A stretch of 64,000 nucleotides of DNA from Diplocarpon mali (Eukaryota; Ascomycota; Leotiomycetes; Helotiales; Drepanopezizaceae): contig JAENRP010000218.1 of NCBI GenBank assembly GCA_024741835.1, positions 1-64,000 of the forward strand. The letters run 5' to 3'. Positions 1,518-56,940 of the stretch are shown here, piece after piece; position 1 is the first letter of the stretch; each line of letters begins with the position of its first letter. Made by a program: the position numbers and the translations under genes. Under the pieces are notes generated by a model. The model saw only the letters and a program-made list of their open reading frames with translations, was not told the DNA's origin and did no database searches.

Positions 1518-1518
1518 T

Positions 1519-2274: not shown

Positions 2275-4960
2275 ATACTAGAAAATACTAAAAATAATAA
2301 CAATTTTAAACTTTTTACTAACCTTTTATCTAAATCTTTTCAAACTTATCCTAATCACTTTAAGATTGACTTAGATTCTAAATGTTCTTTAAGCCCTTTT
2401 AAATTTCGAAGTACTCCTCTTAGCAATCAATCTCGCAATATTAAAGCTTCCCCTTTGCCCCTTATAGATTCTATTAACCTAGACGGTTAGTATAAAATAA
2501 TAATAGCCGCATTTAAGGCTATTACTAATCACTTTCCCCTTCCTAATTCCCTTAGCGCTCCTTACTTTATAAGCGCTAATATTACTAATTTCCTTAAGCA
2601 ATATAAAAAAACTTATTACGATTTTGGTATTATATAAGAGGATATGATTTCTCAACTTCCTTGCTACTATGATTATATAAGTAAGGATATTATCAAGTCC
2701 CTCCTCAAATGGAAAACTCATAGTTTATAGGAACTCCTTATTAAGGCCTTTAAATCTGAATTTCGCGAATTTAACAGATAGTAGATTTGCGATACCTTAG
2801 CTTTCTTAAAGGAATTTATTCTAATCACTTATACTCCTAAGGAACTTAAGAACTACTATCGGACTTTTACTTATATATTAAACACCTTAATTAGCTAGAA
2901 AATACTTAGCGAAGTTAAAAGAGGCCGCCTTTTCTTACTCAAATTACCTATTAGACTCTAAAATAAGATTATTAAGCATTTTAAGATTAATAAGCAAGAC
3001 CTTATAACCTTTGTCTTATTTAAGGAATTCGCGGCCTTTGCTTTAAAATCAGATCTTAGTAAGAGAACTATTAATGCTATAGAGTAGGAAAAAGCCCTTA
3101 CTCCCTTTTATACTAAAGACCTTAAGAGCTTGGTCTAAGAACACTCAAAGGCTTTAGAAGTTATAGAAGAGGTAAAGAAGAACCTAGTAGTTATACCTTT
3201 TACTCGCGAGCCTGACCTAGGAGTGAAATCTAACCTTAGAATTAAGGAACTTAAGACCTAATTTGCAAAACTCTAAATCTAAAGCTTGGAAACTAGGATT
3301 AATGATCTCTTATAGGAAAAATAGCATATTCTCTAATTTAGTAATAGGCAAAACTCGGCTACTATGAGCCAATATAGTAGTTCCTATTACTAGACTCCTG
3401 CTTCTTATCATTTAGAATAACCTGCTAATATAAGAACTTAATAGTTGATTAAAGAAGGAGAAATTAATCCTAACTAGCACTTTACTAATATTAATACTAT
3501 AGGGTACTAAGGGAATAGCAATAGAAGACGACTAACCTGCAACTTTTATAATAATAAAGAACCTAACTGCGCTCTATATAAGTATTATAACAATTGCCCT
3601 CTTTTCCTTTGTTTTATTAATACTAGGGTCATACATATTAATAAGTATAGGATGCTTTGCATTAGGGATCCTAGGCTAGAAGCTATCCCTATTAAAAAGC
3701 ACTAGAATCGCTTATAGTTATAGACTATTCGAACGATGATATATAGTACAAAATAGAACGAGAATTTAGTCGAACGATAGTATATTATAGATATAAATGC
3801 TAAAATTCCAACTTATATATATATAGGTCCAACTAGCAATCTACCTAAGGGAGTTCTTAAAGACCTAGCTTCTGATTAAATAGCTATAGAAGTTAAAGGC
3901 ATCTTTATCTTAGGATAGGTTAATAATAATATTTCAACTAATATTAATACTACTTCTATATCTAAGAATCCTTAGAATTCTCAGCGTCCTTTTAGATCTT
4001 CTACTCTACTAATACTAATAAAACTAGCTAAAGTCCAGAAATCAGCGCGTGCAACTCAGGAATCTTAATATAGAGTCCAAATGCTAAAAGATACCTAATA
4101 ATCTAGAACTGCAGTAGATAAGAATAAAGCCGATATAGCAGACGAATTAATTAGAGATATAATAGACGAAGATAGCTTTAAGCTTAAAGATTAAGAAGTT
4201 GAAGTTATTACGCAGACCCTTAACCTTAAGCGAAAGAGATAGATATTAAAATAAGAGAAATTCGTCGACAAATACGCTAGTTCAACTGTAATAGAGAAAG
4301 CTATAGAGAATATTATAGCCTAGCAAATTAACCTTACATTTAAAGACCTATTTAATTTAATTAGACGCTTTAATAAAGTGCTAGGAAAGCATATCCCAGT
4401 TACCTTTAAAGATTTGAATAATAATAAGGAAATGGAAATTATAATACAAAAGAACTTTAAGAAGCACCTAGCCTTAATCAAATGTCTTTAGATTATAAAA
4501 GACAAAAGAACCTAAAGGTACTATAATATTATAGCAATAGCTTTAATATCTTAGAATATCAATCGAAATTATTCAGTAGTTATAATAAAAAGCCCTATTA
4601 TTATTTATTCTATAGAAGAATCAATTAAAGCAAAGGCTCTAATCGATTATAGTTTAGAAGTTAATATAATAATTAGAAAAGTGGCGGAAATAGCTCAATT
4701 AACAATCGTTAGCGATCGACTCCTTATTTATTTAACTATCTCTAAATCGAAATACAATTTTAATAGATAGGTAAAAAATGTAAAGGTTAAAGTCAAAGGA
4801 ATCGTTAATTATACTAACTTTCTAATAATAGAGAATTCCTCGAATGATATTCTTTTAAAAATGCCCTTTATTTTAGAATCTTAGCTAATATTTAACTATC
4901 TTAAAGATAGGCTTATAAAAGCTAGCCTTTAGAATACAGATCGATCCTTAAAAGGATAAA
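2275..4960 (+). pseudogene. gag: X gag-protease (Ty3/Gypsy), RIP-degraded
   Basis: The frame starts at ATA (2,275), which is ATG at the same place in Y (42,549), so it is a RIP-damaged start. The N-terminal half reads like the fungal Gypsy capsid type, with PYFISANITNFLKQYKKTYY around 2,560-2,620. A cysteine-rich stretch (CNFYNNKEPNC) near 3,540 looks like a damaged nucleocapsid zinc knuckle. Around 4,585-4,960 the sequence ALIDYSLEVN followed by a hydrophobic C-terminal part resembles a retropepsin whose DSG/DTG site has been altered. A 23-bp palindrome copy at 3,202 is read in frame as TREPDLGV. There are many TAG/TAA codons at expected Q and W positions. Gag and protease share one frame, while the RT lies in another. 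Confidence 0.75.
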
Positions 4961-5090
4961 TAGTTATCGCAAGAGATATAGCCGAATTCTAAAATAAGGT
5001 TTTAGGAAACGATTAGCTAGCATAAGGGCTAAGCTTAATACTAGTAAAGGAAGGCACCTAGCGAGGAGTTATAGCAAAAGAAAGGTAAGT

Positions 5091-8000
5091 TTGCCGATTT
5101 TGAATAATAGCGATTTAACTCGCAGTCCTAGACTAGGAGTCAAATCTAGAATTTTGAAAAATAGTGCAATCGGCGTTTTATCGGCTTAACAATTAAGAAA
5201 AAAGAAAAATAAGGTAGAAAAGAGAGTTCGTTTTACAAATTTCGATAATTCATCGATCATTTTAAAAAACCTAAAAACTACTTATAGGCCAGACCTATAA
5301 GTGAAAAATAATAAAATTACTAATAATATTTCCATTTATACACTTTAAATTAACAACTTAAAAAATCTTTTATTTATTTTTAAAAAGGAAAATTCGGACT
5401 GTTTTATAGGATTTGATAAAAAAGGAAAGAAGTAGAGAAGTATAGTACTAGCTAATATTCGAACTATATATAAAAGCAAGGCCGATAAAGTACAACCAGT
5501 AGATTAGGGAATCTCTAACAGCTTAAAGCCTAGAGGACTGGACAATTAGTTTAAATAAGATAAGAAGCTTCAACCTCCAAAGCCAAGTGGCAAATTTGAT
5601 AAGTTTATTATAAGCAGATTTTCTAATAAACCTATTAGATATCAGCTAATAAAAGAACGTTTCAATATACTAAAAATTGGAGATAACTTAATAGAATAAG
5701 AACGCAAACTACTTTATAAAACCTTAATAAATCGAAAGGACGCCTTAGCTTTTAATTAAATAGAACTTGGCCAGATTCGAAAAGAGGTTACGCCTTATAT
5801 TAAGATTAAGATAATACCCTATAAAGCCTAGCAAAAGAAAACATTCAAGGTCCCTAAAGCTCTTTAAGAAAAGATAATCGAAATATTAAAGGACAGGCTA
5901 AAGCAAGGAGTTCTCAAGTTCTATAATAGCCCTTATAAGAACAAATGGTTCCTAGTTATTAAGAAAGAGAAGGGAACTTACAGACTAATAATAATAGTAG
6001 TAGAGATGAACTAAATAACTATTAAAAATACTAACATTCCTCCGAATATAGATAAGTTCTTAAATAAATTCATAGGATTAACCTACAGCTCTCTTATTAA
6101 CTTCTTTTCTAGATATGACCAATTCATTCTTAATATTAAATCAAAAGATATAATAGCAATTCAAACCCCTCTTAAGCTACTTCAGATAATAAGATTACTT
6201 TAAGGGGCTATAAATTCGATCGCTCAATTTATTTAAGTAATCTATAAGATACTAGTAGATTGCATACTTAATATTACGCTCCCTTATATAGATAATATAG
6301 GAGTAAAAGGATTAAGATCATTTTATAACTACAAAGAAGTTCTTCTTAGCATACAACGATTTATAATAGAATACATTTAAAACCTAGACCAGGTGCTTAT
6401 ACAATTCGAAAGGGCAAGAGCAACAGTTGGTCCGAAGTTATAATACTATCTTCTATTAATGGAAATTGTTGGTTTTATTACTGATTCTAATGGCCGAAGT
6501 CCTTAAAGGGCTAAAGTACTTAAAATCGACAAATAGAAGAGGTGTAATAATATGGCAGAAGCTCGCGCGTTTATTAGCATTATAATATACTATCACATTT
6601 AGATCAAGGATTTTGCTAAAAAGGCAGCGCCTATTTACACCTTATTTCAGAAAGGGGCTGAGTTTTAATAGGAGGAACCTTAAATAGAGGCTATAAAACA
6701 ATTGAAGCAAGCGTTGCTTAAAGCGCTATATCTGATTAAAATAGACTATAGAACCAACGCTAGGCTAATAATACTAATAGTTAACGCAAGCTTAATTGGA
6801 TAGGGTACTATCTTTTAATAAGCTAATAGCTAATAGAAAAGACATCTAGCTCACTTTGAAAGTAGTCTTTAGAATCTAATAGAGACAAAGTATAATACTA
6901 TTAAATAGGAATGCAAAGGAGCCTTAAAAGCAATGAAAAAGATAAGAAGCGACCTTTATAGTACTTACTTCATTCTTAAAACCGATGCTAAAGTATTAGT
7001 AGAATAACTGAATAGAGCTGCAAGCAACCTACCTAAAGCCTTGCTAATAAAATGGATTACTTAAATAAGACTGATAGACTTTAAAGTCAAATATATTCTA
7101 GGAATAAAAAACACTACTATAGACGGCCTTTTAAAAAGAACTCGGCCCTACCCCTTTGATTTGATTAAAGAAGATAAAACAGATATTAATAAGTAGGTAG
7201 AAAACGAAGTTGGTTGTTTATTAATATATCACCTTAAAGGGACTCGACTCGCGAGCCTAGCCTACGAGTTAAATAAGAGAATTTTATCACCTAACTACTT
7301 AAGTAACTTTAAAGAAATTGCAAAGTTTTTAATTACGCTTAAACGACTAAAGACAGTTGCTCTTAAGGATTTTTAGAAATTTAAAGCTAAAGCTCTGATT
7401 TATCTAATATAAGGAAGACGATTGTTTAAAAGGAGCGATAACTCATTCCTTATACAACTCTGCTTAGATAATAAAAAACTAAAGGCTAAGGCTATCTAGG
7501 ATATTTATAAGGAAACTGGCCACTAAGGAGCTAAGTCCACTTACTACCAACTCTTAAGAAAATTCTTTTAGAAAGGCTCTTTTAAGGACTATAAAGCTTT
7601 TGTAAAGAGTTGCATCCCTTATTAGAAATAAAAACCTAGTTATAAGGAAAATCCCTTATTCCTAACCTAGCTATCAGGCCTTTTCTATAAAGTCAGCCTT
7701 AATATTATATAAGTACTAACTACTAAGAATAGGATAATATATTTTATTCTAGCAAAGGAAGACCTATTAGGATGGCCTAAAGGATGACCTTTAAGATCTG
7801 CTAACTCTAAATCTATTGCAAAGTTCCTTTAGAAAGACGTAGTCTATCGCTATAGACTTTTTAGTAGATTAACTATTAATAAAGGCCTTGAAAATAAAGG
7901 AGTAGTTAAAGCTTTCTTATAAAAATATAGCATCAAACGGGTATAAATCTTAATATATAACTCAAAAGCTAATAGAGTAGTAGAATAAGGATATTATAAT

Positions 8001-8790
8001 ATTCTTAATAGTCTATCTAAAGTTACTCGCAAAGGATTTAAAGATTAGATAAAACGCTTTTATAGAATACTCTTTACTTATCGAACGATAATTTACAAAC
8101 CGACTAAAGTTATACTATTCTTCCTTATCTATAGCAAAGAGGTACAGCTCCCTCTTGAATCCTAATAGCCTATTTAAAGATTATTCGACTATAGTCAAAT
8201 TCGGAACCGTTCTGATTTGCTTATAATAAGATACTGATAACTTAAGCTTTAAGATATAGATATAAAGGAAATCATTCTACAAAAGAAACGATATTAGGAA
8301 AAAGCTAAAGAAGCGTAGGCTGCTTTCAAAGTACTTAAAACGCACCTTATTTGAAAAGATGATCTTATCCTAGTCTATAATATTATAAGAAGTATTAATA
8401 TATCTATAGATACTAAACTTAACTATCGATAGCTTAGTCTATTTAAGGTTAAGTCCGAGTAAGAAGAAAAGGGATACTATTCTCTTTAAGAACTTAACGG
8501 AATCGATATTAAAGGAACCTTCGCAGCCAACCGACTAAAGCACTTTTATTAATACAACCAGACCTTATTCCCTTTAAAAGACGAATCAGAAATTGATATA
8601 ACCTCCGAATCTTCTATAGGAACCGACGGCAATATAAGCAATTTTAAACCCTTAGATAAAGACTAAGATTTTTCCAATTTGACCTATAAGCCGGTCCCGT
8701 AGGTAAAGAATATTAAAATACCCAACTAATCGCAACCCTAAGTTATTATTCCTAAAATATTTAAAGAATGCAAGTAGGAATACTAAACGA
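5091..8790 (+). pseudogene. pol: X pol: reverse transcriptase, RNase H, integrase (Ty3/Gypsy), RIP-degraded
   Basis: RT is clear at about 5,787-6,480, with SPYKNKWFLVIKKEKGTYRL, then NIPPNIDKFL, IQTPLKLLQ and the active-site region YIDNIGVKG at 6,285. The second catalytic Asp is now Asn. RNase H follows at about 6,760-7,140 (LIVNASLIG, then TDAKVLVEQLNRA with the stop read as Q). Integrase begins with a zinc-binding remnant (YKETGH at about 7,500, KSCIPY at about 7,605, last Cys lost) and a core near 7,660-8,200. The C-terminus (YSLQELNGIDIKGTFAANRL, stop read as Q, about 8,475) resembles the end of fungal Gypsy Pol proteins. Pol is in a different frame from gag-protease; the shift falls between about 4,960 and 5,090. 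Palindrome copies at 5,118 and 5,280 are in frame. The copy at 7,247 is in another phase and lacks the internal TAG. Confidence 0.88.
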
Positions 8791-9099
8791 TTTCCTAGCC
8801 TATCAATTATCTTACCTTCCTCTAATCCTTATTTTTACATTTTTAGCAAGGTCGCCTCCTTTATTATTTAAGATATAGATCTTTTAGGATCACTTTAAAT
8901 TCTTGCCTACTCTGACTTATTTTACATTCTTAATATTAGCCTTTAATTATAATATTCCTATTACTTTCCTTGAATAATAAATAAAAAAGTCCAATTTCCT
9001 TAATATATATATAGTAAACCTATTGCAGCTTATATGCCCTTTTAATTCTTATACCCTATTGAACTCTCTTATTTATACTCCCTATCTTTCATAAGCAAT
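8791..9099 (+). other. X spacer between pol and ORF2
   Basis: About 300 bases rich in T and C without a frame. I saw no promoter or splice signal that could be trusted after RIP. The homologous stretch in Y is about 29,582-29,890. Confidence 0.5.
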
Positions 9100-12000
9100 A
9101 TGCCTTTAAAGAACTTATAAATGGTTTTATCTACTGCAATAGGGGATAAATAAGCACTAGTTATAAACTTCTCTTAAGATAGTAGAGCTATTATATTATT
9201 AAAGAGCTTTAAATCGACTTACGCAGCCTTAGGAGATATAGAGTAATAAAAACTCCTTTCAGCTTATATAAATGCTATTAGCAACCTTTTAACCTAGGTA
9301 GCCCCCGGAATTCTCCAATTTAACAACTTCCTAACCGAAGAATTAAGACTAAAGGGAATCTTTAAAGAGGAATTCTTAGCTGACGCAGATTAATATATAA
9401 CCTTAGCCAACACTTTTAAAATAGATTAAGATAAAAGGGAAGAATCTATTCGACAATTAGATAATTTAGCTACTAATAAGAGAAGACTCCTATTTTATTT
9501 ACATTTCCTAATAAATATTGATTCTAATAATAGAAGGCGAGTATTATTAAAAATTCTTAAGGAAAACACTCTTATAGCTAAAGCTATTCAAATTCTTAAT
9601 TTCTTTATTATTTAAAAAGGAGTAGCAAAATTCTAAGGCAATCGAATTTGCGGTCGCAGATTTATAAGCCTATCTAATGCAGTACTTATAGTAGCTAATA
9701 GAGCTATAAAAAGATCAAATTAGGCTGCAGATATTACCTTACCTAATAGTACTATTATTAATATGCTAAGGCTTTGCACTTCTACTTATAGGTTGCTTAT
9801 TTTAAAAGAAAACTAGACTCTTATATTAGAGTTTAAATAAGATTTCTTTAATAATAAAGAAGAGAATTAGTTATTTATAATTAAGCCTGCCTTAAAATTC
9901 GCCTCTTAGCCTAAAGATATAATAAGCGCTAAACTATATGATTTGACTTACAGTCTTAGATTAGGAATTAGAAATAAGAATTTTAAAACTGGACCTAACT
10001 TGCCTTTTATTAAAATGATTCTAGAAACTGCTATCAAATAGACTGCTTAAACGCTTAGCGCAGCCTCTTTAGAATTTTCGGAATCTTTAAAGGACTCTCC
10101 TTTAGCTAAACGACTAATTTTAGCTTAACCTTTAAGAAGGATAGATCGTTCGATAGCTACCTTAGCTGATTTGCAATTTAAAACTAAAGGATTGCGCGCT
10201 CGCTTAAACTCCTTCTTTAATAACTTAAAGGAGCTAATTCTTAACTTCTTTATATCTATATACAACCGATTTAGAAATAATAATATAAGGGAAGACCCTA
10301 TTCCTTCTACTCTAAAGATAATTAGAAGAGCTATTAGACAAATTTAATAGCTTATCCTAGATAAGTTTGCCCTTATAAATATTATTCAATTCTTTAATAA
10401 TTGCAAAAGTTAAGAACCTAGTCTCTTAAATGCCAAGCGGGACTATTTTGTCTTATAAGAAAGAGAACGTAAAGAGGAATCTATTAATTAGGACATTTGT
10501 AATTATAGCAATATGCCTTAATCAGTCATTCTTAACCTCGAACTTAGAGAATAATATAATATTCAAATATCCTTTGCAATAAAAACTCGCTTTTAATAGT
10601 ATCTTCCTAGCGTAGGAATCGAAGGAAGAAGACTTTGCGACCTTTATATTCGCTCTCTTTCGATTTACTATAGTCTTAATTATAAAGGATTTGATATTAA
10701 TAAAATTATTAAACACCTTAAACTTCTCTATATAGTAGAAGATATTGATCTTTTTCTAATCCACCTTAATAATTAATTCTTTATCTCTTTAAAGATATAT
10801 AAATCCAACCTATTAATAATAGAGGCATCTTTAAGTGCTATAAAATTCAAGGCTGATCCTAAAGCCTTAAAGGCATTAGAGCCGATTGAATAGGATAATT
10901 CCTTTTTATCGATATTACTAAACAATGAATAGCAGGAGGAAATAGAGGAAGAAGGGTCAATTGTAATGCTTGAACCCTTCGGATGCCGCTTCCTAACCGA
11001 CAATTTTACTACTAATAATAGTACTTTTATAAGTATATTCCTTTCTATTATAAGATAAGAAGCAGAGATGTATCTTTATTACTTCTGCCTTATAGATAGC
11101 GCGACCTTTATACCTTCTTATTTTCTTTATAATATGATATTCAGTCTTACTTAATAAGTCTTTCGAATGCATTATGGACTCTACCTCTTAGTTATAATAA
11201 TAAGAAGTAGAGGAACCTATTAGCTTATGGCCTACCTTAAACCTCCTTAATTGATTAGCCTTAGTCTTTATAATTAAGTCGTTTTAATAAAGAGAGATGC
11301 AAGTGCTACTAATAAAGAAATTCCGATTTTCACTCGCGGTCCTAGCCCGCGAGTCAATTTTATTAGAAAGCAAGTCTTAAATTATTAGATCCTACCGATC
11401 GGATAAGAGCCAGCTTCTAGAAGCCTTAATAGGTAGGTCGGCTCTTAGTCGAATGTAAAACTCATTCTATCTATAAAGAAGACAAGTTGATAGACTTCCT
11501 AGGCACTTAGTTTAAAATCTCAACTAGCTCAAATAATTGCAAAATTAAAGCAAAAGGAGATCTTACAACCTATTACTAATAATAGCAATTCAATTATAGT
11601 AATAATAAAATAGGAATACCTTTTTAAAATACTTTCAGATAATCCTTATAGGACTAGTGGTTTTATAGCCTTTTGCAACAATTATATAGCTATTTGCGAT
11701 AAGAACACCTTAGAAAATAAGACTTAAATCTCCGACCTTGTCTTTTCAATCTCTATTCTAAAGCAACCTCTAGTACCTCAATAGATTAATATAAGTAGGA
11801 CTACTGCACCTTTTAAAGTAGCTTTTTATCTTAAGAACTGCAGCAGCCTCTTTAAAGCTATTATTAGTCAATACTCTTAGATAGATCTATTAGTTATAAT
11901 TGAAGTATAAGAGTTGTTTCTTCTTAATAAAGACAAATTGAAAATCCACTTTGCAAAATATAATTAAAAGCTCTTTAACGCCCTTATTAAGGCCTGGACG

Positions 12001-12432
12001 AATATTATAAATACTAAGTCGCTTCTTTATAGACTTAAGTCTTAAGGATAATGCGATAAAGTAAATGCTATCTAAGAGCCTAATGCATTAATTAATAAAG
12101 GCATTATTATAAGAAAATTCGGAAAAGAGACAAACTGAGACGCTAGTATAGTATTAAACCCTAATTTAGGAACCAATCTCCTATTTTTACCCTTAAGTTT
12201 AAAAATGCTAAGACTGACTTGTAAGCCTAGCCTACGAGTAAGGTTGGACTCAGCTGGCTTAAGCCTATAAGAAGGTTCGAATGAACCTTAGTTACTAAAT
12301 CTAGGGGTACTAATAGAAGATCCTTTAAAAGAGGTCCCTAAAGCTGAGAAATCGCCGAGAAATAAGAACTAACGCAAGAGAAGAAGACTCCGAAGTGATA
12401 ATAGAACTGATAATTAAGTCGATTCGATTTGA
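9100..12432 (+). pseudogene. X ORF2: large accessory frame of unknown function, paralogue of ORF3
   Basis: Reading TAA/TAG as former Q or W, one frame runs from ATG (9,100) to TGA (12,430-12,432), 1,110 codons with no net frame change. It is not gag, protease, RT, RNase H or integrase. It is collinear with ORF3: residues 160-179 read AKAIQILNFFIIQKGVAKFQ, against AKAIQVLNHFTIQEGMKKLQ at 165-184 of ORF3. A second block (MYLYYF at 657, FRMHYGLY at 688) matches MYQYYF at 674 and LRMHYNLY at 705. The C-terminus is basic (KRRRLRSD). In-frame palindromes lie at 11,332 and 12,217. I saw no obvious signal peptide or membrane segment. The reading frame is shared with Y, so it is part of the element rather than a passenger in one copy. 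I do not recognise the family. Confidence 0.75.
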
Positions 12433-13006: not shown

Positions 13007-16000
13007 ATACCTAAGAAGAACATGTCAGTTGTTGCCTTAGGCAGCAAGTTAATAAATATTACTAGCAATAAGCTAATATTAGAGGGTGGCTTTTTATAGG
13101 AGGGCAAGTTATTAAGATCATTAGAAGATATGGTAAGCACCTATAGAACATTAGGTAAAATAGAATAATAGGTATTCCTGAACTTATCTATTGAAGTATT
13201 GAACTATAGAATCTCTACAGTCGAAGAAGGATTTTTAGGCTTTGATGATTTTCTTAAGAATAAGCTTAAGATAAAGGGAATCGATTATAAAAAATTCCTA
13301 TAGGAATATTAGGGATATACTAATTCAGTCAATCTATTTTAAAAGAATTAAGATAAGAAAAATGAGTATATAAAAAGGTTGTTGCAATTTATAAGTAGTA
13401 CCTATAGTACACTTTTTCGGATATACTTTATAATTAATATCACTGCTAATAACGCCTTGCAAGGGCTTGGCAAAATTTTTAAGATATACTAACTAGTGGC
13501 AAAGGCTATATAGGTATTGAATCATTTCACCATTTAAGAGGGTATGAAAAAGCTATAGGGAAATAGTACGCAAGGTAGAAAATTTGTAGGTTTCTTAAGT
13601 ACTATTGTCTACTCCGCTATTCAGACTATAAAGGATAGCCCCTCCTAATATAATAATATTGTATTGCTAGACTAAATAGTTCTAGATACCCTTAGTTTAT
13701 AATAGTTATAATATAGTTTACTTATTATAAAGGAAAAGATGATCTATCTAGCTAAGTATACTATAAACTACTTTAATAATAAGATAGAAAGATAGAAGTT
13801 TATTATACCTACCGCTTAGAAAATGCTGCTACCCTTAGAAGATTCAATTAATAAGCAAAATTTGACTTATAGGCCTGGCCTATAGGTGGAAGTACTATGT
13901 AAGGAGGATGTCCTTAAGCTAGAGGTGCCTATAACACCTAGAACTCAAATAGCTAACTATTGCAATCACTAATTATTAGACTTAGATAAGTTTGATTTAC
14001 TATCCTTAAAGATGCCTTAAATACCTAGAACACTAGTAGTAAAGAAGTTAACTTATGAGCCCGGCCTATAGGTTAGAATACATAATAATATAGACTTTGA
14101 AGATAATCTGACAGATAAAGAGAATAATCTTATTACTAATATAATAGAAATTTTTAATAATACTAAAAAGGATATAGCCGATATTATACAAACCTTTTCC
14201 AAAGACCTGCAAAAATTTGTTTTGAAATTCTATAAGTTAATAATAAAGCGTTTGAAAAAGGAAGGTCAGGGAGAAGTTTTACTAATATAGGAAGCGATAG
14301 CAAGAGCTGTTAAATAAATTATAAAGCTATAATAAGACGAATTTTCTATAGATAATATTATATATTTCTTTATCAAGTATAAGAAATCGAAGGGCGACTA
14401 CTATATCCTTAAAGAAAAGCCAGAAAATAGCATAATAATCATATCTATAGAGTGCTATAAAGTTCCCCTTAATATTAAAATAATACTTTAATATAGCAAT
14501 AGATTTAAGATTGCAATAATACTAGAAATGAAGATACAACTAAGCAAATTTGTAATAGAGATATTCAAGGACTTCAGTTTCGAAAAATTTTATACTTTAT
14601 ATAAATGATAATATGTATAATATTATAGGCTGATAATAGTATCTTTGACTAATAAGCAAGTTTCCTCTAATATATACAAATTTTATACTGCACCTAACCT
14701 AAAGTTGTTTTTACTATACCTAGGGAATTATGCAATTATGGCTACTAGCAATAGAATAGCAAGCTAGGTCAAGAAAGATATATTATTAGGTTTCGCTAAG
14801 TTTAAGGTAGAGCCTAAAGCTTTAAAATTATTCTATAATATCGCTTGGACTCCCGCCTAATATAATGCTATACTAACTAGTAATAACCTAATATTACTCT
14901 ATAGCAAAGGTTTTTTAAATATGCTTAAATTGTTTAACTACGCTTTCCTAAGTACTATACGCACGTATAGTTATAGTAATTATAGAAAGAATTCATTTTT
15001 GATAATAGTATAAGAGGAGCTAGAAATGTACTAATACTATTTCCAGACCTTAGATAAGAAGCCAAGCCCCCCCTCCGCCTTCTTTTATAATATAACTTAT
15101 AGCTTAATACAGCAGACCTTAAGGATGCACTATAATCTGTATTTTAATGCTCTATTAACTCGTTATAATTCTTTATATAAGCTGGTAGCATATCCTAAGC
15201 TTATATAGTTTATAGGCATTAACTACTATTTGCAAATTGTTTCTATTAAGATTAACGCTAATATAAGATTCGTAAGATTAACTCCTAGGCCCAGCTCGCA
15301 GGTCAATCCACTTAATAATAGAACTATTAACTACTATATAATTCTAATAGCTAAACAATCGACTGGAGAATTTGCTATATAGGAAAAGTCTTATAAGTTA
15401 TTTATACTTATATCCTATCGCCTTAAGAACTCTTAATAGATCTTATTAAATCTAGCATAGAGCGCAGCTTAATAGAAAGAATTAAATACTAAGGATAGAA
15501 CAATTCTAGAGGAGTACATTTCTAATAAGACTACTCTATTCTCGGTATTTATAAGACAAGGTACCTTCATTAACTTGGATTCTAATAGAGAACCTAGAAA
15601 GGGTAGTTTTCTTACTATTAGCAATAACTATATAAAAGTTATTAGCAATGAATCACTTGAGAATAGCACTAACCTAAAAGAATTTATTATCAATTCTATC
15701 TATATAAAGAAATTAAGCATAGTAAGATAGAGTATTATTAAAGAAGCCTTAGCCAAGTTTTATATAATACTTAGTATAATAAAAGGTAGTCCACTATCAG
15801 ACGCTCTTATAAGAAGACGATTATAAAGTGATCTATTAGTAGTAATGATTATAAAGGATTTGTTTGCAAAAGACGTATCTTAGCTAATAGTATATCTAAA
15901 GAAGTATAAATAAGAACTTTTTAAAGATTTTGCTAGTACTTAGAAGCTGGTTTAATAACTAAAGCTATAGTTGTATAGTAATAAATCTTAGACAAAGACC

Positions 16001-16441
16001 AAGGATATAGATGATAATATTAAAGCTAATAATATAATTGATAAAACGATACTCCTTAAGAAGTATAGCATTAAGAAGCCTTATGCAAAGACACCTGATA
16101 TAACTCCTAGGCCCGGCTTGCAACTTGATCTATTAAAGGGCAAGGCCAAGGAAGTAGTATCTATAGAATCTCCTGCCTCCTCCTCCTTTATTACCGACAA
16201 TTCCCTTAAGGATAATGATAATAATAATAATAATAACGCTACTATATAAGTCTCTCTTCCTATTAGCAGAAGCCGTTATACTATATTAGCATTCGCAAGG
16301 AGTATAGAAGCTCCTGCTATATTAAGACCTGCCTTATCAGATACTAATAGCAATGCTATAAGAAGAAGTAGTCGTTCGGCAAAGAGAGTATTATCTAGTA
16401 ATAGTTCTCCCTATCCTTTAAAGAGAACTAAGGAAAACTAA
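13007..16441 (+). pseudogene. X ORF3: large accessory frame of unknown function, paralogue of ORF2
   Basis: One frame runs from ATA (13,007, a RIP-altered ATG; ATA-CCT-AAG-AAG-AAC aligns with the ATG-CCT-TTA-AAG-AAC start of ORF2) to TAA (16,439-16,441), 1,144 codons with no net frame change. It aligns collinearly with ORF2 over the first two thirds or so. Beyond that it has its own C-terminal part, with an Asn-rich run (DNDNNNNNN near 16,206-16,240) and a basic tail (RRSSRSAKRVLSS at about 16,361-16,399). Palindrome copies at 13,865, 14,051, 15,281 and 16,103 all begin on codon position 1 and read T-x-x-P-x-x-Q-V-like peptides, for example TPRPGLQL. X itself sits inside the Y copy of this frame. 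Function unknown; a structural or env-like role is possible but not supported by any motif I see. Confidence 0.75.
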
Positions 16442-16784
16442 CGCCTAGGTTGGTTCTATTTTAATTGTTTTTTTTTACAATTCTATAGCTTATTTATTTG
16501 TTTTGCTAGTTTCTTTTTCTAACTCCTAGGCCTGGCCTATAGGTGAAAAGCGTATATATAAAAANNNNNNNNNNNNNNNNNNNNNNNNNNNNNNNNNNNN
16601 NNNNNNNNNNCCTTTTTTTCTTTTACCTTTAATAATAATATAGCCTTAGTTTAAGCCTTTTAATATATTAGTTTTCTTACACTTAGGGTTTACTAGTGAT
16701 TGATATGCTATTACCTTAACCTATATTATTCTATATTCTTTACTAATAGTAGTAGAGGCTACTACTTTTATTATTTAGGATATA
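16442..16784 (+). other. X 3' untranslated region with assembly gap
   Basis: Between the ORF3 stop and the 3' LTR. It contains a well-kept palindrome copy at 16,522-16,544, the N gap at 16,565-16,610, and T-rich sequence after it. I did not find a clear polypurine tract before the 3' LTR; RIP may have blurred it. Confidence 0.5.
16565..16610. other. Assembly gap (46 N)
   Basis: A run of N between ATATATAAAA and CCTTTTTTTC. The window's first bases correspond, in reverse, to the same point of the Y copy, so the unresolved stretch is probably low-complexity sequence shared by the family. True gap length is unknown. Confidence 0.95.
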
Positions 16785-20335: not shown

Positions 20336-20373
20336 TATTTAATTTATTTGATTTTAACGCAATTCGATTCGAA

Positions 20374-23300
20374 ATAGCAATAGCTTCTGATTCCGATCGA
20401 AACACTAGACTTAAAGACCTTTAACTCTTTTAAAAGAACTAGTAATAATAGTTCGACGATTTAAAGCTTTACTTTAAGAGTAAAGGCATTGAAATAGCAA
20501 TTCAAAAGACACTTATTAAATACGTAAGAATAGCCCCTTATACTCCTTCTACTAATTCGTCTACTTCTACTTTAATAGCTAATACAATTGCTAAAGATTT
20601 GCTAAATATATTAAATAAGCTTAGCTTAAGAGCTTTAATAGATAATAACTAAGAATCCTAAAAGCAGATTTTAAATATAAAAAAGGAGAATAAGTATAAA
20701 TTAGCCTTAGCCAAATGTAAGCTTAAGATTAATAAAGGTTTAAGCGATAAAGACCGAGATTTTATTTAAGTTTATAATAATATAAAGATAAGATAGGATA
20801 TATTAAAGGTAAAATACTCTTAGACAACTGCCTTTAATACTTAGCATCTGCTATAGCAGATCACTTTATTTTAATATAGAAAAGATAAAGATAGTAAGGA
20901 TATAGATATAAATATAGACTCTGCTTAATCTATACTATATAAAGTAAGGAGGAGAGTAAGAGCCGCAGATCCTAGGATAGCTATAACTTTTAGGAAAACT
21001 TAGCTTTTTAATTTCTTACTTAATAGCCTCCCTTTTAAGTTTGCTATTGCGAAATAATCTCTTCTTATCTAACCTAACCTTAAGATCTATAAGAAGATCG
21101 ACCTCCTTTGAATTATTAAGTAAGACCTTAAAGGACGCTTTAAGTTGGCAAATACCGCATTATAGGGCAATGATAAGCTTAAGAAGAGGAAAGAGCGCAA
21201 GATAAGCCCTTAAGCTTATTAGAGATACTACTTTTATAATAGTACTTATAATATTACTAATTGTAAAGTTAGAAGGTAACTGATTGATATAGTCGCCAGC
21301 TTTAATATTAAAAAGCAATTAAAGCAGAAGTTAAAAAGCAAACTACCCTTATCCTACCGAAGGCCGCAACTATTAAAGAAAGGCAAAGGAAAAGGCTATT
21401 TAGCCAGAACTTTAGCAGATACTTTTAATAATAATAATAGGTTATTTAAACCTAAATCTACTTTTAATAATTCAAATAATAATTATAATAAAGATGCTTA
21501 CATTTTAAAAGCCGATCTTTATAAGATCTTTAAATCCAATTAGTATAGTAATACTAATTATATAGTATATATAACTAATAAACCCTACTTATTTAAAGGC
21601 CCGCTTATTAAAATAAAAAGGCGCTCTATTAAGGTTAATAGTAGAAGGTTATATATAGATTCGATAGGTATAGTAAAGATGAATATTGCTAGCATTTCTT
21701 TCCTTTTGCAAAATGTTCTCCTTATACTTAGCTTAAGTATTAATCTTTTATCTAGCTATAAGATTTATATAGAATTGAATTATATAAGAGTTTTTAATAA
21801 TCAATTTATATAATTTATAAATAATAATTATAAAGTGATCTTTAAGGCTAAAATTAAAGATAGACTTTATATTATTTCAAAGGTGATATTATAAAAATTA
21901 ACTCTTAAGCTAAACTTATAAGTAGATTCCTTTAAGGAAAGTGCATTCTTTACCCTAATACAATTAAGCAAGGATAAGGAGAATAGATAGACTTTTAAGC
22001 TAGGATTATAAGTGAAACTTGCGAAAATAACTCTTAAGCTAAGATTATAGGTAGATTATAAAGTATTTTTAAAGATGACTTTTAAGCTAAGATTATAAGT
22101 AAATTTAATAGAAATGACTCTTAGGCTAGGATTGCAAGTGGATTTTGCAGATTTGCTAATAATAACTCTTAAGCTAAGATCGCAAGTGAAATTCGTAGAA
22201 ATGACTCTTAGGCTAAAACTATAAGTGAAATTTGCAAATTCGTTAGAAACGACTCTTAAGCTAAGACTGTAAGTAGATCTTACGATTTTATTAAAAACGA
22301 CTCTTAAGCCAGGCTTATAACTGGAAAACGGCAAAACCTTAAACTGCTATTATTAGTCCTTTTTAACCGCTAATAATAAAGTATTAATTAATAATAGGCT
22401 ACTAAAGCTATTAAAAGCCGAAAGCCTATTAAGGTATTAGCTAATATATAAAAGATTCGTATATTTAAGACTAGAGAAATTAAAGGGCCTATATAAGGTC
22501 TTAACCTTAAAATAGAAGATTTAAGTACTAAAGGATCGCTTAATATACTGAATTTGCAAGCTAATAAAACTTTAAAATCGGACGCAAATTAAGCTTAGTT
22601 TATAAAAAGATTCAATACTAGCGCTAATATTTATTAATACTATTAGACTATTTACAACTTTAATCAAAGGAAATAATTGGTTTTCTTAAATAGTAGATAA
22701 TTCTACTTAATAGATATAAACCATTTGCACTAGGACTAAATCTAAGCTTATAGAAAAGCTAGAAACTTAGAAAGTAATAAAGGAATGCTAGACTTAGTTA
22801 AAGCTAATAGCTATTAAATCTGATAGTATATTAGAGATTAAGGCAAAGCTTAATAAATAGGTAAAATAAAGAGTTTATTATAAACCAACTATAATATATA
22901 AAGGTTCTTATTAAAATAGTATCGCTAAGCGAAGCATCTAGCAAGTAGAGACTGACTATCGCACTCTACTATAAGATGCTAACTTACTATTAGAATTCTA
23001 GGACCTTGCAATTAAAGCAGATATATACCTACAAAATAGAATAAGTAGTAGACTAATAGTCAATAGTACTTAAATATTATTATATAAGGTATATTTTAAA
23101 TAGAAACTAAGCTTAGACTATATCTGCGTCTTTAAAAGTATCTGCTACTCCTATATTAGCCTAAAGTCCTAGCCTATAAGTATAAAGAGTAAAAAGCTAA
23201 TAGACTAAGGTAAAGAATATATATTTATTAAATATATTAAATAGATAATAAAGCAATAAATAATATATGCACTAGATCTAAGGCAAGTAATTATATCCTT

Positions 23301-36161: not shown

Positions 36162-36481
36162 CCCTTACTTAAACCTTACTCCGATTGACCTATAGTTAGG
36201 AAAATAATAACTATCCTTTTACGCTAATCTAACTCTTAAGTATCTCTTTAAATTAAAAACAATTAATTAATAGTAACTTCTATTAAAATTACCAATCTTA
36301 CTTGCAAAGCAGGATTAGGAGTCAAATTTCTTAAAAGATATTCCTTTATAAGACTATATAACTTGACTTGCGATTTAAGCCTAGGAGTCGATTTAAAAAC
36401 TTTCCTTTATAAAATTATATAATTTAACTTATAGGGCGGGCCTAGGAGTCGTCCTTAAGCCTGCTAAGCCCCTACTATCTT

Positions 36482-39400: not shown

Positions 39401-41519
39401 TAATTTCTCTAGTCTTAGATATGCGAATCTTTTATATATTAGCTAATACTTTAATAGGCTTTCGGCTTCTAATAGTTTTAGTAGCCTATTATTAGTTAAT
39501 ACTTTATTATTAGTAGCTAGAAAGGACTAGTAATAGTAGTTTGAGGTTTTGCTATTTTCTAATTGCAAGCCTGGCTTAGGAGTTGTTTTTAGTAAAATCG
39601 CAAGATCTACTTATAGTCTTAGCTTAGGAGTTATTTCTAACGAATTCGCGAATTTCACTTGTAGTCCTAATCTAGGAGTCATTTCTGCGAATTTTACTTG
39701 CGATCCTAGCTTAAGAGTTATTATTAGCAAATCTGCAGAATCTATTTATAATCCTAGCCTAAGAGTTATTTCTATTAAATTCACTTATGATCTTAGCTTA
39801 AGAGTTATCTTTAAGGATACTTTACAATCTACTTATAGTCTTAGCTTAAGAGTCATTTTCGCAAGTTTCACTTGCGATCCTAGCTTAAGAGTCTATCTAT
39901 TCTCCTTATCCTTACTTAATTATATTAAAGTAAAAAGTGCACTTTCCTTAAAGGAATCTACTTATAAGTCCGGCCTAAGAGTCAATTTCTATAATATTAC
40001 CTTTGAGATAATATAAAGTCTATCTTTGATTTTAGCCTTAAAGATCACTTTATAGTTATTATTTATAAACTATATAAATTAATTATTAAAAACTCTTATA
40101 TAATTCAACTTTATATAAATCTTATAGCTAGATAAAAGATTAATACCTAAGTTAAGCATAAGGAGAACATTTTATAAAAGGAAAGAAATGCTAGTAATAT
40201 TTATCTCTACTATACTTATCAAATCTGTATATAACCTTCTACTATTAACCTTAATAAAGCGCCTTTTTATTTTAATAAGCGGGCCTTTAAATAGGTAGGA
40301 TTTATTAGTTATATATACTATATAACTAGTATTACTATACTAATCGGATTTAAGGATCTTATAGAGATCGGCTTTTAAGATATAAGCATCTTTATTATAA
40401 TTATCATTTAAATTATTAAAAGTGGATTTAAGTTTAAATAACCTATTATTATTATTAGAGGTATTTGCTAAAGTTCTGGCTAAATAGCCTTTTCCTTTGC
40501 CTTTCTTTAATAGTTGCAGCCTTCGGCGGGATAAGGGCAATTTACTTTTTAACTTCTACTTTAATTGCTTCTTAATATTAAAGCTAGCAACTATATCGAT
40601 CAGTTGCCTTCTAACTTTATAATTAGTAATATTATAAGCACTATTATAGAAGTAGTATTCTTAATAAGCTTAAGGGCTTATCCTATGCTCCTTCCTCTTC
40701 TTAGGCTTATTATTGCCTTATAACGCAGCATTTGCCAACTTAGAGCGTCCTTTAAGATCTTACTTAATAGTTTAAAAGAGGTCGATCTTCTTATAGATCT
40801 TAAGGTTAGGTTAGATAAGAAGAGATTATTTCGCAATAGCGAACTTAAGAGGGAGGCTATTAAGTAGGAAATTAAAAAGCTAAGTTTCCTTAAAAGTTAT
40901 AGCTATCCTAGGATCTATAGCTCTTACTTTCCTTTTTACTTTATATAGTATAGATTAAGTAGAGTCTATATTTATATCTATATCCTTACTATCTTTATCT
41001 TTTCTATATTAAAATAAAGTGATCTACTATAATAGATGCTAAGTATTAAGGGTAGTTGTCTAAGAGTATTTTGCCTTTAATATATCCTATCTTATCTTTA
41101 TATTATTATAAACTTAAATAAAATCTTAGTCTTTATTATTTAAACCTTTATTAATCTTAAGCTTGCATTTAGCTAAGGCTAACTTATACTTATTCTCCTT
41201 TTCTATATTTAAAATCTACCTTTAGGATTCTTAGTTATTATCTATTAAAGCTCTTAGGCTAAGCTTATTTAATATATCTGGCAAATCTTTAGCAGTTATA
41301 TTAGCTATTAAAGTAGAAGTAGACAAATCGGTAGAGGGAGTATAAAGGGCTATTCTTACGTATTTAATAAGTGTCTTTTGAATTGCCATTTCAATGCCTT
41401 TGCTTTTAAAGTAAAGCTCTAAATCGTCGAACTATTATTGCTAGTTCTTTTAAAAGAGTTAGAGGTCTTTAGGTCTAGTATTTTAATCGGAATTAGAAGC
41501 TATTGCTATTTCAAATCGA
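36482..41519 (-). pseudogene. gag-pol: Copia B gag-pol, RIP-degraded
   Basis: The counterpart of Copia A 20,374-25,401, with start ATA (41,519) and stop at 36,482-36,484. Its length is not an exact multiple of three relative to that start, so small indels are present besides RIP stops. A stretch at 40,540-40,340 retains 66 open codons of the gag C-terminal region (basic, GKGKGYLARTLA). The palindrome array lies at about 39,560-39,985. Confidence 0.82.
39556..39985 (-). repeat. In-frame palindrome array in Copia B
   Basis: The same array as in Copia A, on the minus strand. The opposite strand stays open for 155 codons (39,549-40,016) because each unit is a multiple of three and RIP stops fall in the sense frame. 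That antisense frame (repeats of SLRVI) is not a gene. Confidence 0.8.
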
Positions 41520-41894: not shown

Positions 41895-41908
41895 TAAGGC
41901 TTATAACC
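41895..41908 (-). other. Copia B primer-binding site, half-tRNA type
   Basis: TAAGGCTTATAACC on the plus strand, the reverse complement of GGTTATAAGCCTTA, directly inside the 5' LTR. See Copia A. Confidence 0.65.
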
Positions 41909-51355: not shown

Positions 51356-51590
51356 TGTAGCAAGGAGGTTCTCTGATAGTGAACTTGATAGTAAACTAGA
51401 AGAGAGGGCACGAAGAAGTATAAGGTGCAAACGACGATATTAGGTGTCTTAATTCATAAGAGCTCTCTAACTACGAGCTATTTAACAAGGGCTGCCACTA
51501 AGTCATATGGCAAGTCATATAATACATCATATATATGATTTATCATATGACAGATTATATGACAAATATATAATAGGCATTCCTATAACA
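51356..51590 (-). repeat. V 3' LTR
   Basis: 235 bp, TGTAGCAAGG to TCCTATAACA on the plus strand. Its right half is strongly RIP-mutated compared with the other LTR. Confidence 0.94.
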
Positions 51591-51605
51591 CACCCCTCTG
51601 GGGAG
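51591..51605 (-). other. V polypurine tract
   Basis: CACCCCTCTGGGGAG on the plus strand, directly inside the 3' LTR. Read on the minus strand it is CTCCCCAGAGGGGTG, placed where plus-strand priming starts. The CCCC/GGGG arms could also pair. Confidence 0.7.
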
Positions 51606-51750
51606 ACCTTTAAAGGTACTCGCCAGCAATACATATAATATCATAACTTTTATTATAATCTACAGTTTCACATGAAAAATCAACCTACAGATATAGGAAA
51701 TAGAGTAGAGTTCGCTAGCGCGAAATCCACCCCTTAGTAAGCCAAAATCA

Positions 51751-51865
51751 ACTCGCGGGCCCGGCCCAGGAGTAGAAAAAAAATCACCCCTTAATAGAAG
51801 TGCAAAAAAAAAAAATCACCCTATAATAGAGGTGAAAAAAAAATCACCCCTTAATCGAAGTGCAG
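51751..51865 (-). repeat. V 3' repeats: palindrome plus three A-tract units
   Basis: The best-preserved 23-bp palindrome copy (ACTCGCGGGCC then CGGCCCAGGAGT, 51,751-51,773) is followed by three units of roughly 30 bp. Each has an A tract of 8-12 bases, then ATCACCCCTTAATMGAAGTG. The last unit overlaps the end of gag-pol (TAA at 51,853-51,851). The reason for the triplication is unknown. Confidence 0.75.
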
Positions 51866-53657
51866 AACCTTCATATTTAACAATTTGATAAAGGCGGCGT
51901 AGTTAGAGCTATTTAAGCTCTTAGTAAGGCCGTCGGCAGCGTTGTCTTTGGTATTCGTATACCAAAGGTCCAAATGGCCTTTCTAAAGCTCTTACCGAAT
52001 ATAATAGAACTTGATATTAATATACTTCATTTTCTAATAATATTCGGGATTTTCAATAAGATAAAGGGCTCTCTAATTATCGCAGATCATTTCGACTTTA
52101 GTAGCGTCATCGCTAGTATAGCCTATTTCCTTAAGTACCTGGCGTATCCAAGAGGCCTCTTATGCAAATTTGCATATAGCAATATACTCTACCTTTATAG
52201 ATAAGAGAGCAATAATAGTTTATTGCTTAAAGGAGGCGGTAATTATGCTATTATTAAGGAAGAAGACGGCCTTAAAATGGAAGGCTTTACTTCCTCTATT
52301 ACCTACCTAGTTAGAATCGCAATAGCCGTGCAATTTCTAAAGCTTTAGGTCAATTGTTTTACTTCCAAAGATAGTATAATAGAATCGCATTCCTTATAAG
52401 TATTGTAAAACTCGTTTTAAAGCTACTATATATTATAGTAAAGGGTTAGTAAGGAATTTGCTAAGAATGGAGCAGTAGTATAATATATCCTAATGCGTAT
52501 AGTGCGCAAAGTACTATAAGGAACCGCAGATCTCCTAGTATAGCTTCACTTCCTATGGAATGGCTTAGCCTTCAAATTTGACCATATGAACTTTATAGCC
52601 ATTAGCAAAAGGCATTGGTACGCTCTTATAATTAGTTATATAAAAACGTTTAAGAACCTTATTAACGTAGGCGTCTTAATAAAGTAAGATCGTTCTATTT
52701 TATCGATCTCTAACTATATATACTCTTAAGAAGTAATTAGCCGGTTCGCCACCTATAATCTCGAAGAGGTTGCGAAGATCTCTCTTAAACTTATTATATA
52801 TATCACCTTTCTTTGCTACTATAAGGAAGTCGTCGACGTAGGTAATAATAAGAATCCGAGAGGCGCGGTTGATATATACGCAATTATTAGTATCGAAAGG
52901 TTGAAAATCGAGCTTTTACAGCTCAAACTGTAGCTTTTCTTACTATAGTCATAGAGATTGCTTCAAGCTATATAAGGCCTTAAGAAGCTTAAGACAGTAG
53001 TCTTAAGGTAAAAGAACGACCTTATCTTAAGTATATTTAAGAGGTAACTTAATATAGATATTAGAGTCAGCTTCTAAATTAAAGAAAGCTATCTTAACGT
53101 CGAACTAATCTAACTTAAAGTTGTAGAAAACTGCAAGCGCAATTACAATCTTCCAAATAGCAGATTTGCAAATGCTAGTAAAGGTTTGGTCGTAATCTCG
53201 ACCTTATTATTACATATAGCCTTATATAACGAATCTGACCTTCTATTAGGAGATTTCCCCGTTTTAGTCTCTTTTAGTTTTAAAGACGAGTCTTAATCTA
53301 AGTACTCTATCGTCTTTAAAGAGGTTTAAGCGTTTTACTACTACTTATATATTCTTATAAGCGAGGGAATTGTACTTAAAGTTGATCGCAGATCGCCATT
53401 TGTTAATATTAGCGCAAGAGAGGGCTTATTCGACTGTTTTCAGGTCATTTAAGTATAGAGAGTCAAGTAAGGCTATATAGAAGGCACCTAAATAGGCTTC
53501 CTTATTATTAGAGTTATTAGCTTTAAATCTAAAAGTATAAGTTAAGCGAGTAGCTCTCTTTTCGGAAGGCTAAGGGTAAGCCTTATTCTTTGAACTAAGA
53601 GGTCTTCCTCTTTTTCTTAAAGTTAGACAGTCAGTTTCATTAGCTTCTCCTAAATCG

Positions 53658-53776
53658 ACTTGCAGTCCTGGCCTAGGAGTGAAATCATTATAAGAGTTAG
53701 TATTAACTCGCGGTCCCGGCCTAGGAGTAGAATTATCGTAAGAGTTAGAATTGACTTGCGGTCCTAGACTAGGAGT
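53658..53776 (-). repeat. Three in-frame palindromes in V, 48-bp period
   Basis: Copies at 53,658-53,680, 53,706-53,728 and 53,754-53,776, read on the minus strand as TPSLGPQV, TPRPGPRV and TPRPGLQV, separated by 8-residue spacers of the SNSYDNS type. All begin on codon position 1. They lie between integrase and RT, a tolerant linker. The 48-bp period is also found in the Copia A array. Confidence 0.88.
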
Positions 53777-55163
53777 CAAATCACCCCTTAATTGCGGCTC
53801 TATAATTAGGCCATCTTTATCGAATCGAACGTAAGATAATCGAATAATCTTTTCACCTATTTATAATAGCATATAGATTTAATAGATACTTCTACTATTA
53901 AATCCGATAAGAGTACTTACTTTTACTCTTAAAGCGAGTTTATTACTCTAAGTTCGCTTTTCTTTCTCAATTAGTATATAGACGCAATAGCCTAATACTC
54001 AAAGATGCTTAACTAAAGGAGTATAAGGCTTATTAGGCTTAATATTATCCTAAAAGACCTTATATAAAGTCTTACTACTTAGAATATCAAAGGCAGTAAG
54101 ATTAGTAATATATATTATTAAAAGAAGGAGGTAAGGCCAGAGAAAGGAGGAGATATTTTAATTAATTACAGCTGTTTGCAACTTTTCCATTAATATACAA
54201 ATTGATTATTCCGATCTACTATCTTATTCTAGCGTATATAAAGTAGATTCTTCTAAAATTATACCAAGGTTTTCTATAAGTATTCGCATCTATATAAGAG
54301 AGTACTCCTTACTTCTATCAGTTCTCTACTACTTAATTATACAATTATACTAAGTTTGTAAAAGGCTAATCATTTTCTTATTTACCTTAAAGGCATTAGA
54401 TTTATTTATATAAGTCTATTCCCACCTAGCTATCGTAGCTACGCAAGTGAAGATAGAAGCGTATTTATAGCCGTTAAGGCCAGTTGGCTTTAGATAAACC
54501 ATATCGACATATAGCTTATTAAGTGCCTTCGTAAGTCAAGGGCGAGCTAAATGTTTATTAATATATTAGAAAGGTCTGCCTTTCTTATAAGGAGCGTAAA
54601 TTCGCGTCTTCCTTGATTTTATTTCCTTAATTTATATATTAGTAATAGCAGATTAGGTCTTTCTAACCGTTTAAAGGCCAGCGTAGCCTAATCGACGGTA
54701 CTAAAGCTCAATATCAAAAGGTCCATTCTCAATAGTAGCTAAGAGAGTATATCCACTTATATAACCAAAGGAGTCAGTAGAAGGCTATTCCTTATTAATA
54801 TATATATTATTATCAATAGTGCAAATTTCCTTCTTATTAAATAAGAACAGCTTGCTATTTCAATAGAAGCCTTTGATTTTATTAAGTTTACTACTTAAGT
54901 ATAAGTAGATAGGTAATTAAGGTATATAAAGAGTATTAATTAACTTAAGAATATACACCTTTCTATTAGATTTAAGTATATTAACTTTGCAAGTATTAAC
55001 GCTAAAAGGTTGAATAGATCTATTAACTATACTTAAAAAGGGTAGATTATCTTAAGCAGTATAAGAAGTAAACTTAAAGAGATTATTAAAGATGTACTCA
55101 CTAGCACCTATATCGTATAACTAACAATTCCTTAATTTGGATAAGAAGTAGATAAAAGAACTG

Positions 55164-55240
55164 ACTCCTAGGCCTAGCCCGCGAGTGGAAATTGGCCCTA
55201 AAGAGGAGTTGGAATTGACTCCTAGGCCTAGCTCGCAAGT
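55164..55240 (-). repeat. Two in-frame palindromes in V gag/protease linker
   Basis: Copies at 55,164-55,186 and 55,218-55,240, 54 bp apart, in the opposite orientation to those at 53,658-53,776. On the coding strand they read TRGLGLGV and TCELGLGV, again on codon position 1. Confidence 0.85.
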
Positions 55241-56935: not shown

Positions 56936-56940
56936 GTACT

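Follow-up and report, generated by a model that had tools for sequence, protein, structure and literature searches.

A short GC-rich palindrome, ACTCSCGGKCCNGGMCCGSGAGT in its less mutated form, recurs in unrelated families of long terminal repeat (LTR) retrotransposons of the fungus Diplocarpon mali, both in their reading frames and in sequence that is not translated. It was analyzed in a stretch of 64,000 nucleotides (the window: contig JAENRP010000218.1 of assembly GCA_024741835.1, positions 1 to 64,000 of the forward strand) and in the rest of the assembly. Two Gypsy and two Copia families hold the 19 sites that we placed, 14 coding and five non-coding, although the number of independent sites is a matter of judgement. 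We tentatively favor, with a little less than even confidence, an explanation in which the palindrome is a guest, about 23–36 base pairs (bp) long, that lives inside LTR retrotransposons, was copied between unrelated families before these amplified and was then tandemly duplicated. That it is specifically a selfish hairpin confined to LTR retrotransposons, which would spread across Gypsy and Copia elements by template switching during reverse transcription and use their polyproteins as in-frame hosts, is possible but distinctly less probable.

Distribution of the palindrome

Around ACTCSCGGKCCNGGMCCGSGAGT lie looser flanks of the form GATTTN..NAAATC, with a weak extension of the palindrome by about 6 bp outward on each side. 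Within the window there are 13 matches at up to three mismatches, and none in shuffled sequence; in the whole assembly searched (49.4 Mb, 676 contigs) the same threshold returned 2,774 matches (1,414 forward and 1,360 reverse), with none for the reversed-pattern control. The recurrence in unrelated families, first reported in an initial annotation of the window, is thus confirmed. When ACTCSCGGKCCNGGMCCGSGAGT itself is searched with at most one mismatch, 208 matches are found on the forward strand and 208 on the reverse (control 0), the equality arising because the pattern is symmetric and the same places match on both strands.

The host families are one large Gypsy element present in the window as two copies, X and Y; a further Gypsy, locus L041, here named G2; one Copia family that comprises Copia A and Copia B; and a separate family, Copia V. 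Other retroelements (L029, L036 and L040) contain no palindrome at up to five mismatches, and none lies at 43.6–51.3 kb of the window among the matches listed. One additional site, at position 79 of L007, could not be placed. To sample the genome regardless of the motif, 20 stretches of 10 kb were taken, 145 kb of them with a GC content of at least 42% and 55 kb below that. At up to five mismatches, five of the 20 stretches had matches, all within AT-rich blocks. A looser threshold gave 26 sites assignable to families, all in DNA with a local GC content of at most 35%, and nine weak, unassigned and chance-like matches in DNA of at least 47% GC. Of the 200 kb sampled from the 49.4 Mb of the assembly, the 145 kb with at least 42% GC held no convincing site. 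The exact pattern is absent from the collections viral_contigs and genome_contigs, neither of which is a collection of fungal genomes.

Coding copies and their reading frame

The coding copies lie in linkers, between domains or in poorly conserved stretches of the retrotransposon proteins. In Gypsy X, on the forward strand, one copy is in the middle of gag (3202..3224, reading TREPDLGV), two are in the linker between protease and reverse transcriptase (RT) (5118..5140 and 5280..5302), and one is in the RNase H–integrase linker (7247..7269). Downstream, open reading frame (ORF) 3 carries a copy at 11332..11354, which aligns with the ORF4 copy at 15281, and a C-terminal copy at 12217..12239. ORF4 carries four: copy a (13865..13887, with its counterpart in another ORF4 at 18444–18466), copy b (14051..14073, where BLASTP leaves a 7-residue gap in the paralogous ORF3), copy c (15281..15303) and copy d (16103..16125). 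All of these except that at 7247 are in what we call phase 0, with the first base of the palindrome at codon position 1; the exception reads LASLAYE, and in the less mutated copy of this site in L012 the palindrome ends CCCGCGAGT and fits the pattern at 22 of 23 positions. Copia A has an in-frame array of degenerate units in the protease–integrase interval (21991..22309, forward; nine units including neighbors just outside), and the same array is found in Copia B (39657..39901, reverse). In Copia V, on the reverse strand, three phase-0 units with a 48-bp step form an array in the integrase–RT linker (53658..53776), where SH3_retrovirus lies just upstream (Pfam, in L030), and two further phase-0 units immediately precede the protease motif (55164..55240; DIGAS, or DTGAS in L042), so that the coding units are those at 53658, 53706, 53754, 55164 and 55218. 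The coding sites of G2 are at the gag N-terminus and between protease and RT.

Fifteen coding positions reduce to 14 sites, since ORF3 11332 and ORF4 15281 align and are counted once; a degenerate copy at 28713 in the ORF3 of Y was left out. Phase 0 is found at 13 of the 14, and at 11 of 12 when the protease–RT sites of X and G2 are merged, as are ORF3 12217 and ORF4 16103 (p = 5e-5 for 11/12 against an expectation of one third). At the level of individual copies, the 24 coding copies that the initial annotation had counted were reproduced in the sense frames (ten in X, nine in the Copia A array, five in V), as were the phase it had described (first base at codon position 1 in 23 of 24, with 7247 the sole exception) and the occurrence in frame of both orientations. 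That annotation had itself cautioned that array copies are not independent; the figure of 24 is inflated both by arrays and by paralogous ORFs, and the counts by family and site are the ones given above.

Part of the phase bias is accounted for by the avoidance of stop codons. In simulated sequences made of the palindrome and its loose flanks, the fraction left open is 100%, 75% and 25% when the first A falls on the first, second and third codon position, respectively, and phase 0 would be favored because it alone is always open. It had been proposed that the TAG inside CCTAGG closes the other phases. That account fails: stop avoidance is due mainly to the flanking TNA and NAA codons, and the TAG stems from CpG change of CCCGGG, as described below.

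Lengths also go in steps of three. Among the matches listed, the spacing of neighboring pairs less than 150 bp apart is a multiple of three in 19 of 19 cases. The net insert at the V gag–protease site is 36–123 bp, a multiple of three in 39/39 copies, and that at the G2 gag site is 30–60 bp, a multiple of three in 36/38, where net lengths include other small indels of the flanks. The integrase–RT linker of V holds one unit in L057–L059, whereas that of L030 has two and that of L033 three. As units vary in number and coding steps come in threes, single units appear to have grown into arrays with the frame held.

Copies outside the reading frames

The initial annotation had placed the palindrome inside proteins and listed no non-coding copies; the palindrome is not, in fact, specific to proteins. 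Three copies are clearly non-coding. One is in the 3′ untranslated region (UTR) of Copia V (51751..51773, reverse), where its phase varies among element copies, and two lie 61 bp apart in the 3′ region of Copia B (36366 and 36427, together 36366..36449, reverse). A stop codon precedes the 36427 copy in all four of the Copia A/B copies read, and the spacing of the pair is 61, 66, 65 and 65 in four copies. Two more sites are probably non-coding: one at the 3′ end of X, past the ORF4 stop (16522..16544, forward), and one in the 5′ leader of X (2193..2215, forward; 42609–42631 in copy Y). A stretch resembling TTAAGGGGTGATTT lies upstream of both the linker and the 3′UTR copies of V. Several TTAAGGGGTGATTTTTT-like repeats also lie beside the palindrome in the V 3′UTR (about 3000–3100 of L030 in the sense direction; 51751–51864 of the window), and a stretch similar to these is found ahead of the linker copy.

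Symmetry at the level of nucleic acid and peptide

In phase 0, wobble bases pair with one another, and the encoded peptide, TPGPGPRV, is a flexible Gly/Pro stretch. At the wobble positions 3, 6, 18 and 21 there are no transversions among 14 phase-0 labels and six others (majority class, purine or pyrimidine, per site), although changes there could be silent, in a test biased toward sameness by the site-finding pattern, which allows at most two transversions outside positions 5, 9, 12, 15 and 19. The latter positions vary among sites, and a few sites differ at positions 2, 14 and 22. The untranslated copies are a stronger argument than the wobble positions for the palindrome being more than a peptide. 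Its symmetry is partly automatic, because Pro and Gly codons are complementary. Folded as hairpins, six copies have energies of −11.9 to −18.9 kcal/mol. Inspection by eye revealed no clear covariation of the flank bases, and Rfam gave no match in L041.

Mutation pattern

Comparison of nine Copia V copies with L030 gives C-to-T change at 40% of CpA, 18% of CpG, 4% of CpC and 5% of CpT, a spectrum of the type left by repeat-induced point mutation (RIP). Inside the palindromes, CpG transitions number 51/215 (24%) and transversions 6/617 (1.0%), against 535/2902 and 220/29804 (0.7%) outside. We therefore rejected, for Copia V, the idea that the palindrome enjoys special mutational protection; it mutates like its surroundings. 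Seven of eight representative palindromes contain no CpA or TpG and the remaining one contains one, and it is because the palindrome is almost without CpA that it remains GC-rich. Less mutated copies have CCCGGG where the window shows CCTAGG, so that the latter is largely a RIP-type product of the former through a double CpG change that creates TAG. This points to a trap of general relevance: within RIP-mutated DNA, motifs free of CpA stand out and gain apparent stop codons.

Origin of the palindrome

A guest element copied among retrotransposons would bring these features together in the following way. A GC-rich hairpin may have been copied at least once per family among co-resident unrelated retroelements, two Gypsy and two Copia, probably when the RNA hairpin stalled the polymerase during reverse transcription and led to a template switch. 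Copies would survive where they do little harm, that is, in the gag, gag–protease, protease–integrase, integrase–RT, protease–RT, RNase H–integrase and ORF3/ORF4 linkers, as well as in 3′UTRs and probably a leader. In coding sequence the frame would be kept through selection on the element, and single copies would become arrays through tandem duplication in steps of three. Movement as a DNA transposon would be expected to populate host introns and intergenic DNA also, and the confinement to retroelements, as sampled, points instead to exchange during their replication. It is from the absence in the 145 kb of sampled GC-rich DNA that we infer copying during reverse transcription.

Several observations weigh against this explanation. 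The transfer by reverse transcription is itself something that we infer. On its own, the Gly/Pro peptide already dictates 7 or more of the 11 pairs of the palindrome, and the hairpin of the V 3′UTR is unexceptional, with 12 of 200 shuffles folding equally well. The phase bias is moderate once stop avoidance is considered: against an expectation of one half, for insertions that are open, p = 0.003 (11/12) or 0.01 (9/10). There is no definable target-site duplication or exact boundary. Searches with joined flanks, in which at most 40 candidates were scored per site and the counts include the source copy of the query, revealed no empty site. Relative to the joined flanks, all spanning copies are longer: by 36 bp at X gag (38/38) and X RNase H–integrase (40/40), by at least 30 bp at G2 gag (38/38) and by at least 36 bp at V gag–protease (39/39). 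Outside these counts are one split and one single-flank match at X gag, two split or single-flank matches at G2 gag and one single-flank match at V gag–protease. At V integrase–RT, three spanning copies have one unit each and the remaining copies matched as separate flanks. In addition, one site, perhaps two, looks common to ORF3 and ORF4, paralogs with 28% identity.

Since all spanning copies scored are occupied at four sites, the palindrome there predates the amplification of the families, and a site common to the diverged ORF3 and ORF4 would make some copies very old. The 7-residue gap in ORF3 opposite copy b of ORF4 is, at 28% identity, only suggestive of an empty site. Three homologs of the V linker from other sources (P0121–P0123; one from Podosphaera aphanis and two from JGI data) have no unit, but they are not clean empty sites because the linker is hypervariable. 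The in-frame guest reading of the initial annotation is partly supported: near-identical palindromes in unrelated families, in frame in both orientations and mostly in linkers, the coding lengths that change in threes and the homologs without a unit speak for it, while empty copies amount to 0/38 and 0/40 at the two X sites, 0/38 at G2 gag and 0/39 at V gag–protease. That annotation had named two outcomes as speaking against its reading: a genome-wide phase distribution near one third, or a motif ancestral to each element and without empty sites; the lack of empty copies at these four sites is in part the second outcome.

Full occupancy weighs against recent movement, and it is expected equally if the element is functional. 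The palindrome could be a selected cis-acting hairpin, serving in RNA packaging or dimerization or by binding a protein of the host or of the element, and gained by recombination. Besides the four sites without empty copies, its occurrence both in coding sequence and in untranslated regions and the transversion-free silent positions, in the biased test described above, agree with such a role. However, the families differ in the position and number of palindromes, copies of one family contain from one to three units, the retroelements L029, L036 and L040 do without it, and L041 gave no Rfam match. The palindromes of Copia V also mutate as their surroundings do, although those copies may be dead and hence uninformative. 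We regard a functional hairpin as unlikely, but as deserving serious attention.

It is also conceivable that longer linker or terminal segments were exchanged by modular recombination, and that the palindrome is simply what stays recognizable in them for want of CpA, the main target of RIP. The mutation spectrum of Copia V (40% at CpA against 18% at CpG) and the lack of CpA and TpG in seven of eight representative palindromes fit this possibility, as does the TTAAGGGGTGATTT-like upstream stretch that the V linker and V 3′UTR copies have in common. Nonetheless, less mutated copies from different families, compared by eye over 12-base flanks, are alike for only about six flanking bases per side, and we consider such an exchange improbable. 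Slightly more improbable still is a Gly/Pro linker repeat maintained at the protein level, which would be palindromic merely through the complementarity of CC and GG codons. The peptide by itself imposes at least 7/11 pairs, the frame is kept in coding arrays, and coding sites are in linkers or poorly conserved stretches, all as such a repeat would have it; yet only 1.6% of the codings of TPGPGPR reach 10/11 pairs, and the same DNA occurs in another phase (7247), in the opposite orientation and in 3′UTRs, these non-coding copies largely refuting the idea. Chance or assembly artifact, in favor of which we found no point, is already refuted by the control (0 versus 2,774) and by the spread of matches over many contigs.

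Host elements in the window

Gypsy X appears to occupy 1278–17029 of the window, about 15.7 kb with LTR-like ends of 240 bp, and has an assembly gap (a run of N) at about 16565–16610. Downstream of gag-pol it has two more ORFs, both long and broken: ORF3, of which about 1,050 residues align, and the longer ORF4. They are diverged paralogs, 28% identical (E 2e-85) when BLASTP compares the two directly. X is itself inserted into a palindrome of another ORF4 copy (1265–1277 and 17030–17050), where the 4 bp CTGC appear to be duplicated; 15281–15303 is the uninterrupted counterpart of this site. The palindrome was considered as an integration target and rejected, since the short flanks of the Y 5′ LTR and of Copia A, B and V, inspected by eye, contain none, and for the same reason we regard the insertion of X within a palindrome as coincidence. 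Copia V (about 51356–56930) is nested in a different Copia element (49860–57190), and no palindromes were found in this outer element. G2 is hardly mutated (GC 0.52, few stops), and some of its few stops resemble Trp codons turned into TAG; a homolog search with a piece of it returned a single, uninformative match covering 31% of the query.

Pfam identified RVT_2 and RVT_1, SH3_retrovirus in Copia V and a zinc knuckle in G2, with no match in the protease–RT piece of G2 or in the protease piece of Copia A; the remaining protease, integrase and RNase H labels follow motifs that we take to mark these domains. On the reverse strand at 60870–62604 is a host gene for an arylsulfotransferase-like protein, which spans two ORFs that an intron probably separates; the best match of the longer ORF is a protein of Diplocarpon mali, at 96% identity. 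Diplocarpon coronariae is a synonym of D. mali. A published D. coronariae assembly is 51.2 Mb in size with 34% repeats, chiefly Copia and Ty3 (PMC11527701).

Comparison with known systems

Rickettsia palindromic elements (RPEs) are palindromic DNA inserted, without loss of frame, into proteins unrelated to one another, as a rule within non-structured segments (PMC10969869, PMC2996958). The palindrome described here resembles them and their Wolbachia and archaeal analogs in being an in-frame palindromic insert in coding genes, in this case genes of retroelements and with the insertion presumed. RPEs are about 150 bp long and reside in bacterial cellular genes, whereas the present palindrome is 23–36 bp long and was found, as sampled, in eukaryotic retrotransposons only, including their UTRs. 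A spread through unrelated cellular genes has no counterpart here, as no convincing site was seen in the sampled DNA of at least 42% GC.

PARCEL elements are described as tandem in-frame repeats of variable number with dyad symmetry, linked to mobile elements in some taxa and present in eukaryotic microbes too (PMC2996958). Tandem coding repeats with dyad symmetry are common to both systems. The PARCEL repeat is, by that account, a 25-residue amphipathic unit, in contrast to the Gly/Pro unit of about 15–24 residues with the core TPGPGPRV and the additional non-coding copies found here (the PARCEL HMM was not run). The initial annotation knew of no described equivalent in fungal retroelements. 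In our searches of the open-access literature, likewise, no report of an in-frame palindromic element in a fungal retrotransposon came up, which is not proof of absence, and PARCEL must stand beside that claim (PMC2996958).

Short palindromes are also known from organelles, among them the GC-rich clusters of yeast, the Volvox repeats and the A/T palindromes of Fusarium (PMC4478555, PMC2670323, PMC7218506), and for the ultra-short elements of Podospora mitochondria a movement driven by reverse transcriptase has been proposed (PMC2670323). These elements and the present one are alike in being short and spread in AT-rich DNA, and the yeast clusters in being GC-rich as well, unlike the A/T runs reported from Fusarium. 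The organelle palindromes are, however, described as mostly non-coding and variable in presence or absence, whereas the copies here are in nuclear retroelements, for the most part in coding sequence, and no empty site was seen among them. As with a mobile GC cluster or an element resembling a miniature inverted-repeat transposable element, a GC-rich palindrome is dispersed at unrelated sites, but no empty site was found at the four sites and no target-site duplication could be defined. The conserved hairpin of GalEa, a fungal Copia, is also a palindrome in a Copia element, but it is a different, 9-bp sequence at the LTR edge and is not dispersed (PMC5445492). The palindrome works like RPEs, PARCEL and GC clusters, none of which has the same host, but it lacks one or more defining features of each, and we assign it to none of them. 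If our explanation is correct, the movement of hairpins between retroelements during reverse transcription and the entry of new peptide linkers into polyproteins would become testable, and a nuclear, retrotransposon-borne palindrome would join the in-frame guests of bacteria and the mobile palindromes of organelles.

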